DNA from: Gammaproteobacteria bacterium | GTDB taxonomy: Bacteria > Pseudomonadota > Gammaproteobacteria > Steroidobacterales > Rariloculaceae | Length of the DNA: 33,324 nt | NCBI GenBank assembly: GCA_030834065.1 | Contig: JAURFX010000005.1 | Location: 1 to 33,324, forward strand | Reading direction: 5' to 3' | Shown: positions 27,883 through 33,317 of the stretch, piece after piece | Layout: every line of letters starts with the position of its first letter | Position numbering within the stretch: position 1 is the first letter of the stretch | Notes under the pieces: model-generated | Seen by the model: only the letters and a program-made list of their open reading frames with translations | What the model was told of the DNA's origin: nothing | Database searches by the model: none | Position numbers and translations under genes: made by a program

Positions 27883-28022
27883 TGAGAATTTTCTAAAGCT
27901 TTATAAGACAAAGCCTCAGAGACAGTATTTTCAGAATTCTCTGGAATGTATAATTCGCCTGTTTGACCACATCCCCATAAAAAAAATAAGAGTAGGACTG
28001 CATTCAAAGTAATTTTTTTCAT
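27879..28022 (-). CDS. lptM: Small lipoprotein, LptM/YifL-like (47 aa)
   Basis: Manual translation: MKKITLNAVLLLFFLWGCGQTGELYIPENSENTVSEALSYKALENSQ*; signal plus lipobox Cys and CGxxGxLYxPE pattern. ATGA overlaps with both argH stop and polA start; below the ORF track cutoff. Confidence 0.78.
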   Translation of the reverse strand: MKKITLNAVLLLFFLWGCGQTGELYIPENSENTVSEALSYKALENSQ

Positions 28023-29200
28023 TTATAAAGCTTAGCAATTGCCTGATACGCCTCTCTAAAACTTATTCCCTCATCTTGAACCATTCTGAAAGCTTTTTCT
28101 GTTGCATAGAGGCGATCATCTAAGGTTATATTTTCAGGAATAAATACAACGTTTTCAAGTGAGAAGGCAACAGCTTGAATTGTCTCTATTGTAATATCGA
28201 TACATCTAAATAAAGGTGCTTTTATTCTCTGTAAGTCTCTATGATAGCCAGAGGTTAATTTACTTGTAATTAAGAAAATTTCTTGGATTGTAGCAATCGG
28301 GATGGAAGAAGCGGATCTTGCAAGCTCAAAAATATCAGGATTCTTTTTCTGAGGCATAATTGATGAACCCGTAGTTATCTCATCCTTTAATTTAACAAAA
28401 CCGAATTCTTGAGAATTAAATAGAATAATATCAGAGCATAGCTTACTTAGATCGCATAAGATTAAGCTACATTCAAATGCCATAGATGCCTCAAGCTTTC
28501 CTCGGCTTACTTGTACTGAGGTAACAGGATGCTGGGTTTTACTAAAATGAAGTAATTTGGTAGTCAGTTCTCTGTCAATGTTAAGCCCAGGGGTCCCATA
28601 ACCTGCTGCCGAACCTAATGGATTAAGCGAGCAATTTTCTCTAAGCTGAGCAACTCTATGCTTATTTTGATTGAGTTCAGATATAAAGCCTTGTGCCCAT
28701 AATTGTACTGAGCTTGGCATGGCGTGCTGTAAATGGGTGTAGCCCGGAATTGCAATTTGGCCAAAATTTGCATTTAAATAATTTAGCGATTTAATCAGAT
28801 CATCTATCGCCTTAGAAATCTGATTACAAACATCCATAAGATATAGTCTTAAGGCGCATAGCAATTGATCATTTCGAGATCTTCCAAGATGAATTTTTCC
28901 ACCTAACTGATCAAGCTTCTTAGTCAGTGCATTTTCAATAGCTGAATGACAATCCTCATCTTGAGCTGAAATATTCCATTGCCCTTGTTGAAATAATATG
29001 GCTAATTCATTTAACGCATTTACAATTTGATCAAGTTCACCATCTTTAAGGTATCCTTGAGAGTGAAGCATTTTTGCATGCGCATCACTACCTTTTAAAT
29101 CATAAGGAATTAATCTTTTATCCAGTTGGCTGTCTTCAGCTGAAGTGTAGTTCAAAATTAAATGATTAAGCTCAATACCTTTATCCCAAAGCTTGGTCAT
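28019..29200 (-). CDS. argH: Argininosuccinate lyase (short form, 393 aa)
   Basis: EDCHSAIENAL, KIHLGRSRNDQ, PGYTHLQHAMP, signature GSSIMPQKKNPD. Confidence 0.92.
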   Translation of the reverse strand: MTKLWDKGIELNHLILNYTSAEDSQLDKRLIPYDLKGSDAHAKMLHSQGYLKDGELDQIVNALNELAILFQQGQWNISAQDEDCHSAIENALTKKLDQLGGKIHLGRSRNDQLLCALRLYLMDVCNQISKAIDDLIKSLNYLNANFGQIAIPGYTHLQHAMPSSVQLWAQGFISELNQNKHRVAQLRENCSLNPLGSAAGYGTPGLNIDRELTTKLLHFSKTQHPVTSVQVSRGKLEASMAFECSLILCDLSKLCSDIILFNSQEFGFVKLKDEITTGSSIMPQKKNPDIFELARSASSIPIATIQEIFLITSKLTSGYHRDLQRIKAPLFRCIDITIETIQAVAFSLENVVFIPENITLDDRLYATEKAFRMVQDEGISFREAYQAIAKLYK

Positions 29201-29202
29201 AT

Positions 29203-30129
29203 TTACGCCTTTTGTTCTTCTTTAGTGAGAGACTCGATATCTTTTACTACTAAAGTTCCTGTGCCTTCATTAGTAAAAATTTCTAATAAGATACTATCAG
29301 GTAATTCATGTGAAATGATATGTACACGGTTAACACCCGCCTTGATTGCACTCTCGATTGCAGCTACTTTTGGAAGCATTCCATCCATTAATTTTCCTGT
29401 CACCTTCATTTGGTTTAATTGTTCAAGGTCAATATAAGAAATGAGCGAAGAGGGATCTTTAACGTCTTCAAGTATTCCAGGAGCTCCTGTAGCTAGGATC
29501 AATTTTTCTGCTCCTAGTTGTGATGCAATTGCGGCTGCTACCGTATCAGCATTAATATTTAAAAGAGTCCCATGCTCGTCTGAGGATAGTGGAGATATAA
29601 TTGGAACTAAATCGCTATCTAATTGTTTATTGATTACTGATACATCCACAGAATCAATGTCACCAACAAATCCAAAATCTATCGATTCTGCACCCTTTTT
29701 AACCAAAGGTCTTTTGTGCGCCTTAATTAAGCCACAATCAACGCCGCTTATGCCAACCGCATGGATACCTAGATCACGACAACAAGCTAAAATTTGAGTA
29801 TTAATTTGTCCATTGAGTACCATAATCGAAACTGCAAGTGAGTCGGCATCCGTTACCCTTCTGCCATCAACTATTTTTGTTGAGAGGCCCAGGGCCTTTT
29901 CTAGTGCTGTTGATTGAGGTCCGCCCCCATGAATGACCACAGTTTTAATCCCTAAATTTTGCAGTATTCCAATTTGCTCCATAAATCTTAGAGTACTCTC
30001 TTTATTAGTAAAAACCTCGCCCCCTGCTTTAATTACAAAGGTCTTTTTTTTGTAAAGCTTGATATAAGGTACCGCATGCTTTAGCGCACTAATCATTGTC
30101 ATTCTCTCTTTGGCAACATTCATCATCAT
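29203..30129 (-). CDS. argB: Acetylglutamate (or N-acylglutamate) kinase
   Basis: FVIKAGGEVF, VVIHGGGPQSTALEKALGL, NINADTVAAAIASQLGAEKLILAT, GKLMDGMLPKVAA. Start trimmed to the ATGATGATG at 30129 that overlaps the argF' stop. Confidence 0.88.
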   Translation of the reverse strand: MMMNVAKERMTMISALKHAVPYIKLYKKKTFVIKAGGEVFTNKESTLRFMEQIGILQNLGIKTVVIHGGGPQSTALEKALGLSTKIVDGRRVTDADSLAVSIMVLNGQINTQILACCRDLGIHAVGISGVDCGLIKAHKRPLVKKGAESIDFGFVGDIDSVDVSVINKQLDSDLVPIISPLSSDEHGTLLNINADTVAAAIASQLGAEKLILATGAPGILEDVKDPSSLISYIDLEQLNQMKVTGKLMDGMLPKVAAIESAIKAGVNRVHIISHELPDSILLEIFTNEGTGTLVVKDIESLTKEEQKA

Positions 30130-31130
30130 TAAACTCCTAATAACATGTGATAGAGGACCGCCATTTGTGCCCATAATCTATTATTTGCTTGCTTTAATAC
30201 AATGCTCCTCTCACTATCAATTACGCTATCTGATACCACAACATTTCTTCTTACAGGAAGGCAATGCATAAATTTGCAAGTTGAATTTGTATCAAACCAA
30301 TCATCATTGACGCACCAATTTTTATATTTAGCTCTAATTTCTCCTTCTTCGCTATTTCTTCCGTAATAAATAGGCGATACCCATGATTTTGCATAAATAA
30401 TATCAGCGCCATTCATACAAGATTTTTGATCATGACTAATACTTAATTTACCGCCATTTTGATTGGCAAGATCTTTTGCAGCTCGCATAATTGCATCAGG
30501 AAGTATGTATTCCTCAGGACATAATAGAGTGACATCCATACCTCTTTTTGTTGCCATTTTAAGAGTAGATGCAGGGACAGCAAGAGGAAGAGCTTTAGGA
30601 TGATAAGCCCAGCTTAGGATAAATTTACCCTCCTTTTTTGGTATAGTTAATTCATCTAAAGTTTTCCAATCAGCAAGGCTTTGGCAGGGATGCTGGATAG
30701 CGCTTTCCATATTGATTAGAGGCTTATCGATTAATTTATAAATTTTATTAAAAAACTTATCATCAAGATCATCAGCAAGGCTCTCTTGCTTGGCGAATGC
30801 TCTAACACCAAGAATATCGGCATAGGATGCAATGACTGGCAGTGCCTCCCTAATATGCTCTGCCTTATTGCCATCCATTACAGCTCCATCTTCGAGCTCA
30901 AGATTATGTATTGCCATGTCCGGGCTCACCATGAAGCTATTCCCCCCAAGTCTGGCCATACCCGACTGAAATGAGGTCATCGTTCTTAGCGAGGGACTTA
31001 GAAAGAGCAGAGCTAAAATTTTCCCTTTTAATGCATCAGGCTCTGGGTGTTTTTGTAATCTTTGTGCGAGCATCAATAACTGATCTATTAATTTAGGATC
31101 GAGATCAGCAATATCATTAAGAAACTTCAT
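30129..31130 (-). CDS. argF': N-acetylornithine/N-succinylornithine carbamoyltransferase family (ArgF')
   Basis: SPSLRTMTSFQ, VMDGNKAEHIREALPVIASYADILGVRAFA, NMESAIQHPCQSLADW, FMHCLPVRRNVVVSDSVIDS: features of the N-acyl-ornithine transcarbamylases rather than canonical ArgF (STRTR / HCLP...E). Confidence 0.82.
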   Translation of the reverse strand: MKFLNDIADLDPKLIDQLLMLAQRLQKHPEPDALKGKILALLFLSPSLRTMTSFQSGMARLGGNSFMVSPDMAIHNLELEDGAVMDGNKAEHIREALPVIASYADILGVRAFAKQESLADDLDDKFFNKIYKLIDKPLINMESAIQHPCQSLADWKTLDELTIPKKEGKFILSWAYHPKALPLAVPASTLKMATKRGMDVTLLCPEEYILPDAIMRAAKDLANQNGGKLSISHDQKSCMNGADIIYAKSWVSPIYYGRNSEEGEIRAKYKNWCVNDDWFDTNSTCKFMHCLPVRRNVVVSDSVIDSERSIVLKQANNRLWAQMAVLYHMLLGV

Positions 31131-32265
31131 GACATACCTCTTTTAGAGTTTCGATAAATATCTCAACTTCCTCAACTGAAAGTGTTAGAGGTGGAAGAAG
31201 TCTTATAGTGTTTTTAAAAGAGCTGCTACCTACAAGAATATTTTTATCAAGCAATCTTGCTTTGATCTCGCCTGCGAAATCTGAAACAAGGCCAATGAGT
31301 AAACCTTTTCCTTGTACTTGTGTAATAGGGGGAACCAAACATCCTTTCATTAGCAATGCTGAAACTCGCGAAATATTTTCAAGAAAAGACTTATCTTGAA
31401 TTTTAGAGGTTACAAAACTAACGGCAGCTGAAGCAAGTGGTCCGCCTCCGAATGTTGAGCCCAAATCTCCTGGGCCCAAGGCCGATGCAATTTCCTTTGA
31501 TACAAGAACAGCCCCCACAGGGATACCGCCCCCCAAACCTTTTGCAAGGGTAATCATGTCAGGCTTTATATTATAAAGGTTGCTACAAAAAACCTCTCCA
31601 CAACGAGCCATGCCACACTGCACCTCATCGGCAATCAGCAATACTTTATGATCTTTGCACTTTTGCTCGAGTGCGCTGATATAACTTTGATCAAATGCAT
31701 AGGCGCCTCCAATACCTTGAACCGGCTCAATAATAACTGCAGCCACATCATTATCAATCTTATTTAGGCCCTCCACAGAGTCTCTTTCTATAAATTCGAC
31801 ATTCATGGGCTTATTGGGGAAGCCATACCATTTCTCATTTCCCCAGGTCACTGCTGCGGCAGCGGCAGTTCGGCCATGAAACGCATGCTTAAGACTGACC
31901 ACTTTTTTTCGGTCACTACTCATCTTAAGTGCAATTTTTAGAGCATTTTCATTAGCTTCTGCGCCGCTATTAACAAAAAAAACTTTATCAACGCTGTCCG
32001 GAGCTAAGCTTATAAGTTTTGTAGAGGCTTCTTCCCGAATTGGAAGATTTACAGCATTCGATTGAAAAATAAGATCTTTAAGCTGCTTTGATAAGAAATC
32101 ACTAAACTGCTCATTGCCATAGCCTAGCGAAGTGACTGCATGTCCTCCATACATATCTAAAATTTTTCGACCATCTTCGGAATAAATATAGGATCCGCTT
32201 GCATGGCTAGGTATAAAATTTAAAAAGGGATAAACCTCATTTAATTGCTTTAACATTTTCACCAA
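31117..32265 (-). CDS. argD: Acetylornithine aminotransferase family (class III)
   Basis: LDMYGGHAVTSLGYG, FFVNSGAEANENALKIAL, FHGRTAAAAAVT, LLIADEVQCGMARCGEVFC, TLAKGLGGGIPVGAVL. Confidence 0.9.
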   Translation of the reverse strand: MVKMLKQLNEVYPFLNFIPSHASGSYIYSEDGRKILDMYGGHAVTSLGYGNEQFSDFLSKQLKDLIFQSNAVNLPIREEASTKLISLAPDSVDKVFFVNSGAEANENALKIALKMSSDRKKVVSLKHAFHGRTAAAAAVTWGNEKWYGFPNKPMNVEFIERDSVEGLNKIDNDVAAVIIEPVQGIGGAYAFDQSYISALEQKCKDHKVLLIADEVQCGMARCGEVFCSNLYNIKPDMITLAKGLGGGIPVGAVLVSKEIASALGPGDLGSTFGGGPLASAAVSFVTSKIQDKSFLENISRVSALLMKGCLVPPITQVQGKGLLIGLVSDFAGEIKARLLDKNILVGSSSFKNTIRLLPPLTLSVEEVEIFIETLKEVCHEVS

Positions 32266-33317
32266 CCTGTAGAAGCCGACAAGAGACCGGTTGACTCATT
32301 AAATTTGTTTAATTTATTAGCCCACTGAATGGACCCACCTGCGGCACCTTTAATTAAGTTATCGATCACACAATTAACAATAATCGTTCCTCTTTGTTGT
32401 TCAATAAAAATTTCAGCATAATTTGTACCGGCTACATCTTTAATCTTTGGGGGAATATTAAGTATTTTTACAAAGTAGCTGTCCTTATAAAAATCTGAGA
32501 ATAATTTTTTTATGCTCATAGTATCTATTTTATTCTTTGGTCGGTAGGAGATGCTTGAATGTATTCCTCTTACAAAGGGTCCCGAATGCGGTAAAAAGTC
32601 TAATTGAATTTCTCGATTAAATGAATGCTTTACTAAATCTTCTATTTCAAATTGATGTCTATGATTAAGAGCGGAGTAAGCATAAAAATTTTCATTTCTA
32701 AATGGATGATGCGTGTTATTTTTTGGTGCAGCCCCTGAGCCACTGCTTCCAGTTACAGAATGTACAAGAAAATAATCTTCATGATCATTTAGCAAGAGCA
32801 GAGGAACCATGGCTAACAGTATGGAAGTAGAAAAGCAGCCAGGATGAGCGATCCGAGATGTAAAATCTTTTGTTATCTCTGGGATGCCACAAGTAAAACT
32901 CTGGTGTATTTCATGAGCAAGAGGCTTGATCCCATAGAGCGTTTCATAGGTTGCTAAGTTACTAAATCTAAAATCTGCAGAGGTATCAACAATCTTGAGA
33001 TCAATGTCATGATTGTTAGCTAATGAAATAATTTCTTCAAGGATATTGGCAGTGCTTCCATGGGGTGCTGCAGACAAAATAGTCACTTTAGATTCATTTG
33101 CTATAGCCTGTTTTAGTGAACTAAAATTTAAAAACTTTTGGTCTTTAGTTAATTTATGCTTTAAATGAGTGAAATGATCTGCAATGGTTTCACCTGCAAA
33201 ACTATTAGACATTACTCCCTTGAGAGAAAAATGAGGATGGTCGAGTGTTAATCTTATAAGTTCTCCTGATACATAACCTGTGCCACCTACGATATAAATT
33301 GAAATATTCTCTTCCAT
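32259..33317 (-). CDS. argC: N-acetyl-gamma-glutamyl-phosphate reductase family
   Basis: IYIVGGTGYVSGELIRL, active-site AHPGCFSTSILLAM, VHSVTGSSGSGAAPK, PFVRGIHSSI. ATG is preceded directly by an in-frame TAG (33318-33320), so the 5' end is complete. Confidence 0.92.
   Translation of the reverse strand: MEENISIYIVGGTGYVSGELIRLTLDHPHFSLKGVMSNSFAGETIADHFTHLKHKLTKDQKFLNFSSLKQAIANESKVTILSAAPHGSTANILEEIISLANNHDIDLKIVDTSADFRFSNLATYETLYGIKPLAHEIHQSFTCGIPEITKDFTSRIAHPGCFSTSILLAMVPLLLLNDHEDYFLVHSVTGSSGSGAAPKNNTHHPFRNENFYAYSALNHRHQFEIEDLVKHSFNREIQLDFLPHSGPFVRGIHSSISYRPKNKIDTMSIKKLFSDFYKDSYFVKILNIPPKIKDVAGTNYAEIFIEQQRGTIIVNCVIDNLIKGAAGGSIQWANKLNKFNESTGLLSASTGW

Follow-up and report, generated by a model that had tools for sequence, protein, structure and literature searches.

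In the arginine operon at one end of this contig, a transcarbamylase gene, here termed argF', raises the question of which ornithine its product carbamoylates: the free amino acid, its N-acetyl form, its N-succinyl form or some other N-blocked ornithine. The window, i.e., the whole stretch of DNA analyzed (33,324 nucleotides), belongs to a draft genome of 1.17 Mb (104 contigs; completeness, 82.6%). Named relatives retrieved with the ArgF' protein were mostly gammaproteobacterial metagenome genomes, Woeseiaceae among them.

The argF' operon and the family of its transcarbamylase

The argF' open reading frame was found on the minus strand; the opposite strand is riddled with stop codons there. 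As seen below, it forms part of an operon with the order argC-argD-argF'-argB-argH, which runs from 33317 to 28019 on the minus strand; upstream of argC, only 7 bases remain before the end of the contig.

32259..33317, minus strand: argC, N-acyl-gamma-glutamyl-phosphate reductase (TIGR01850, 274 bits, above cut-off)
31117..32265, minus strand: argD, acylornithine transaminase family (TIGR00707, 323 bits, under the cut-off of 410)
30129..31130, minus strand: argF', 333-aa N-acyl-ornithine transcarbamylase with the succinyl-type signature A/P/V (NF003384, 362 bits)
30906..30908, minus strand: codon of His75, replacing the 80's-loop Trp of AOTCase and SOTCase (alignment)
30861..30863, minus strand: codon of Ala90, equivalent to Xanthomonas Glu92 and Bacteroides Pro90 (alignment)
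30585..30587, minus strand: codon of Pro182, equivalent to Xanthomonas Asn185 (alignment)
30237..30239, minus strand: codon of Val298, equivalent to Xanthomonas Lys302 (alignment)
29203..30174, minus strand: argB, N-acylglutamate kinase without acetyltransferase domain (TIGR00761, 213 bits; PF00696 only)
28019..29200, minus strand: argH, argininosuccinate lyase (TIGR00838, 298 bits, above cut-off)

The argB reading frame opens within argF'; the true start of argB is likely at or below 30129, where an ATG overlaps the stop codon of argF'.

ArgF' passed the NCBIfam N-acetylornithine carbamoyltransferase model NF003384 (cut-off, 288 bits) and fell under every OTCase and ATCase cut-off, with 160 bits against a cut-off of 281 for TIGR00658. 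The SMG motif of the OTCase DxxxSMG loop was looked for in the ArgF' sequence, and none was found. The segments reported in the initial annotation (SLRTM, MDGNKAEH, HPCQ, HPKALPLAVP and HCLPVRRNVVVSDSVIDS) were all present in the minus-strand reading frame, where SxRT corresponds to S47-L-R-T50, HPxQ to H147-P-C-Q150, HxLP to H289-C-L-P292 and the conserved Arg of strand beta4 to R110. The annotation had measured SLRTM against S-x-R-T-R; the published transcarbamylase motif is, however, SxRT (PMC4581275), and Met51 falls outside it, at a site that is Leu in 87 of the 96 clade members described below. Both the proline-rich loop HPKALPLAVP and the 120's region align gap-free to AOTCase and SOTCase. 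In whole-sequence scores, ArgF' resembled Xanthomonas AOTCase (241-243 bits) more than Bacteroides fragilis SOTCase (187 bits).

Specificity residues and phylogenetic placement

Three residues of X. campestris AOTCase, Glu92, Asn185 and Lys302, set this enzyme apart from SOTCase, in which the equivalent positions hold A/S/P/V/Q, P and V/I/E, respectively (PMC4581275). Acyl specificity can be switched by a single residue at the Glu92 position, and GapMind regards S, P, A and V there as succinyl-preferring (PMC7311316). In our alignment (Xanthomonas numbering), ArgF' carries Ala, Pro and Val at the three positions, all of the succinyl type, and A92 and P185 were invariant across the 96 distinct members of its clade. 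The initial annotation had placed Ala at the acyl-specificity position, and this residue indeed aligns with Xanthomonas Glu92 and Bacteroides Pro90. It is neither ambiguous nor new, since Ala is already listed in the published SOTCase residue sets (PMC4581275, PMC7311316), and Ala at position 92 is thus an expected succinyl residue. Ala is also found at this position in the AOTCase structure chain 3l02. Acetyl-like and succinyl-like segments do occur side by side, as had been pointed out, but this carries little weight as evidence, because the three specificity positions agree with one another. Likewise, HPCQ had been taken as an acetyl-type mark; because the succinyl-signature clade of ArgF' has HPCQ too, the motif is not diagnostic of acetyl specificity.

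In B. fragilis SOTCase, the succinyl group is bound by H176, R178 and R278 (PMC4581275, Table 1), which align to H177, K179 and R294 of ArgF', and Lys at the R178 position was also present in one Bacteroidota sequence. A feature absent from the initial annotation concerns the 80's loop, in which the Trp contributed by the neighboring subunit (W75 in SOTCase, W77 in AOTCase) is replaced by His75 in ArgF'; His occupies this position in 90 of the 96 distinct clade members and Trp in the other 6. The loop residue varies even inside families, human OTCase having His there (PMC4581275), which makes it plausible that His75 serves as a working substitute for Trp. A predicted structure of ArgF', built on 7 sequences, reached a pLDDT of only 55 and was set aside.

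Compared with the Xanthomonas-type AOTCase, ArgF' shares approximately 41% identity, the knotted-type loops and the CP-binding motifs, but it lacks Glu92, Asn185, Lys302 and Trp77. With the Bacteroidota SOTCase it has in common the succinyl-type residues at the three positions, the proline-rich loop, SxRT, HPxQ and HxLP, as well as the equivalents of Glu142, Lys236, His176 and Arg278; it differs in its separate clade and in having Ala for Pro90, His for Trp75 and Lys for Arg178. Two Pro90 succinyl-signature proteins, from Bacteroides finegoldii (L233) and Parabacteroides distasonis (L235), are annotated as acetylornithine carbamoyltransferases.

A tree of 62 rows was inferred with IQ-TREE under LG+C20, and a second run was made without the outgroup. 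In both, the AOTCases, the Bacteroidota SOTCases and the ArgF' clade each lay on one side of a fully supported branch. All 96 distinct members picked by the A92-type signature formed one clade, so that the signature is no chance occurrence, and the OTCase rows fell outside this clade; the tree proposed as a check in the initial annotation therefore does not place ArgF' inside canonical ArgF. Overall, ArgF' belongs to a fully supported third clade, distinct from both Xanthomonas AOTCase and Bacteroidota SOTCase. The ArgF' clade and the Bacteroidota SOTCases were sisters in the free tree (support, 99/94), but the alternative grouping with AOTCase was not rejected (p-AU, 0.76) and had a slightly higher likelihood. 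The tree is thus compatible with either sister, and succinyl specificity may have arisen once or twice.

Among 399 evenly drawn Pseudomonadota genomes, ten besides the own genome matched ArgF' at an E value of at most 1e-45, all at 39-43% identity, and those of the ten that were placed in the tree have the acetyl signature. Inside the ArgF' clade we also observed three diverged transcarbamylase paralogs (L033, L035 and L037, from genomes G025, G070 and G036), whose hosts have an AOTCase as well. Their CP motifs are altered (SxRT to SFHT, HxLP to ALPL or TLPL), and they have Ala, Arg or Lys at position 92; they may use a new substrate or have lost activity.

Two arginine gene packages and the partner gene X

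A protein at least 50% identical to ArgF' was found in 111 of the 147 genomes searched, the own genome included. These are referred to as A92 genomes, the signature itself having been read in those among the 111 whose loci were fetched. Other genomes of the order have an AOTCase with E92/N185/K302 (Q302 in two), and two gene packages thus alternate inside a single gammaproteobacterial order. For tests of partner genes, 18 genomes were chosen, 8 with AOTCase and 10 of the A92 type. The NAGS domain PF04768 was present in all 8 AOTCase genomes and in none of the 10 A92 genomes, and a search of the own genome (82.6% complete) likewise gave no NAT domain. Neither ArgJ nor an ArgA above cut-off was detected in any of the 18, and the GNAT of the Bernardetia arginine operon, taken as the Bacteroidota synthase, was absent from all 13 genomes tested for it. 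Another GNAT, encoded downstream of argH in genome G048, matches the acetyltransferase part of ArgA weakly, but it occurs in three loci only and was rejected as a general synthase. In other genomes of the same order, G029, G033 and further members of families f9 and f13, there was no ArgF'-like match at an E value of at most 1e-20; these are possible canonical OTCase users or arginine auxotrophs.

The two packages also differ in their deacylases. In six loci, AOTCase adjoins an ArgE' that shares 44-54% identity with the Xanthomonas sacchari protein, whereas no close ArgE' was found among the M20 proteins examined from A92 genomes. In the own genome (82.6% complete), the M20 matches were DapE, a secreted M20D protein and one distant third match only, with no ArgE-like M20 protein found. 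DapE is also the only clear M20 deacylase of G048 and G085, two closed genomes with one further, very weak match each; some other A92 genomes are richer in M20 proteins (13 matches in G080). There is no dedicated desuccinylase in the A92 genomes examined, and the statement holds for these genomes alone.

ArgB, ArgC, ArgD and ArgH of the own operon are nearer to those of a Bacteroidota operon than to those of acetyl-type operons, with identities of 35% versus 25-28% for ArgB and 33% versus 25-26% for ArgC. The order argC-argD-argF'-argB-argH is shared with the operon of Bernardetia; the Bacteroidota system differs in its GNAT synthase, in place of which X is encoded here, and the ArgF' operon has no M20 gene. 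In relatives, the operon reads argR-argG-X-argC-argD-argF'-argB-argH, in which X is a P-loop protein of approximately 355 aa that reached the cut-off of no Pfam or NCBIfam family.

L098:2735-3802: X, between argG and argC
L214:3311-3943 (own genome, contig C81): X, incomplete copy in argR-argG-X; the contig ends inside X

That C81 ends inside X is as expected if contig C64 continues C81 after a gap. At a threshold of at least 50% identity, X was found in 109 of the 111 A92 genomes and in none of the 36 others, counts that are not independent since the genomes are related. In one exception (G134), the argF' contig starts 2.3 kb upstream of argF', so that the position of X would be off the contig; the other exception is G016. 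A complete argR-argG-X-argC-D-F'-B-H operon was also seen in a record titled Thermoanaerobaculum sp. and labeled Acidobacteriota (L088), through either inter-phylum transfer or mis-binning.

A genome of another Pseudomonadota class (G414, read over 1.81 Mb of about 2.6 Mb) carries an argR-X-argC-argB operon on contig 23 (L249:8089-11739), with identities of 58% for X, 55% for ArgB and 43% for ArgC. No ArgF'-type transcarbamylase lies beside it, and argG, a canonical argF and argH are grouped at a separate site. Therefore, it is the N-acylglutamate steps that X accompanies, not the transcarbamylase, as would suit an N-acylglutamate synthase; since X stands alongside a canonical OTCase there, it need not make the succinyl form.

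An AlphaFold2 model of X had a pLDDT of 91.6. Its best Foldseek matches in the PDB were dethiobiotin synthetases, at a TM score of approximately 0.4, and the DUF1611 structure 2obn was also in the list; sequence and profile searches of the PDB gave nothing convincing. The P-loop domain of X is thus similar in the fold search to BioD (3of5) and 2obn, whereas its strand-rich N-terminal half lies outside the top matches and no family cut-off is reached. X is not a known acetyl- or succinyltransferase. Paralogs of X at approximately 30% identity (L203, L205, L206, L207 and L219) overlap or abut an M20 gene in the five loci examined and gave weak DUF1611 (PF07755) scores where tested. DgcN, a DUF1611-type protein, is reportedly a D-glutamate N-acetyltransferase. 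A survey of the Mariana Trench described dgcN in Woeseiales (PMC12363236); those genes may correspond to X or to its paralogs.

Proposed pathway, alternatives and meaning

From the family, operon, signature, clade and partner gene distribution, all read from sequence, we infer the substrate of ArgF' and the roles of X and DapE as follows. ArgF' most probably acts on N-succinylornithine (probability of roughly 0.77), carbamoylating N-succinyl-L-ornithine with carbamoyl phosphate to yield N-succinylcitrulline. With Ala90 and Pro182, both small, instead of Glu92 and Asn185, the enzyme would have space for the succinyl group, whose carboxylate would be bound by His177, Lys179 and Arg294. N-Succinylglutamate would be made by X and converted by ArgB, ArgC and ArgD to succinylornithine, and the succinyl group would later be removed by DapE, to which no clear alternative was seen in the genomes examined. 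Succinyl arginine synthesis with a new candidate N-acylglutamate synthase is our best reading of the clade's pathway. The fuller proposal, that X is a non-GNAT N-succinylglutamate synthase, and so a new first enzyme, working with a third SOTCase clade and with DapE as the N-succinylcitrulline desuccinylase, is held tentatively, at slightly less than even odds. An acylated ornithine, possibly succinyl, and a third subclade had been suggested in the initial annotation, and residues, tree and gene context favor both. Counting against the succinyl reading are the higher overall score to AOTCase, the tree that allows AOTCase as well as SOTCase as sister, His75 in place of Trp and the occurrence of X beside a canonical OTCase in G414. 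ArgF' would work like an SOTCase, yet it is not filed as a plain member of that family, because the Trp is replaced and the tree allows either sister clade.

Retention of the acetyl pathway, with ArgF' as an N-acetylornithine transcarbamylase and Ala90 a product of neutral drift, would agree with the greater overall similarity to Xanthomonas AOTCase and with the unrejected tree that unites the two clades. Nevertheless, all three diagnostic residues are altered together, two of them (Ala and Pro) are invariant across the clade, and neither NAGS-kinase nor a close ArgE', both present in the AOTCase genomes tested, turned up in the A92 genomes examined; we regard this explanation as unlikely. More doubtful still is an action on another N-acyl or N-blocked ornithine, in which His75 and X would shape a third kind of intermediate. 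The almost clade-wide change of Trp to His and the lack of resemblance of X to the known acyltransferases could be read in that way, but the succinyl-binding residues are retained and DapE is a desuccinylase. As a member of the transcarbamylase superfamily within an arg operon, ArgF' might also be a canonical enzyme acting on free ornithine; however, its scores are far under the OTCase cut-offs, it has the proline-rich loop of the knotted enzymes, and the OTCase rows lie outside its clade. Moreover, no source of free ornithine was found, because ArgJ was missing from the genomes tested and a close ArgE' from the M20 proteins examined, and we give this explanation very little credence.

What is new here is not so much the Ala as the third clade, the host group and the partner gene X. 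Our literature search found succinylated arginine synthesis described in Bacteroidota only, and no report for Gammaproteobacteria turned up. Proteins of the ArgF' clade are labeled acetylornithine enzymes by the NCBI model. A gap finder limited to NAGS, ArgJ and the GNAT synthase would probably score the A92 genomes as missing the first step, for which X is a directly testable candidate. If the proposed pathway is true, the succinyl route would be the standard one for much of the gammaproteobacterial order to which Woeseiaceae belong.
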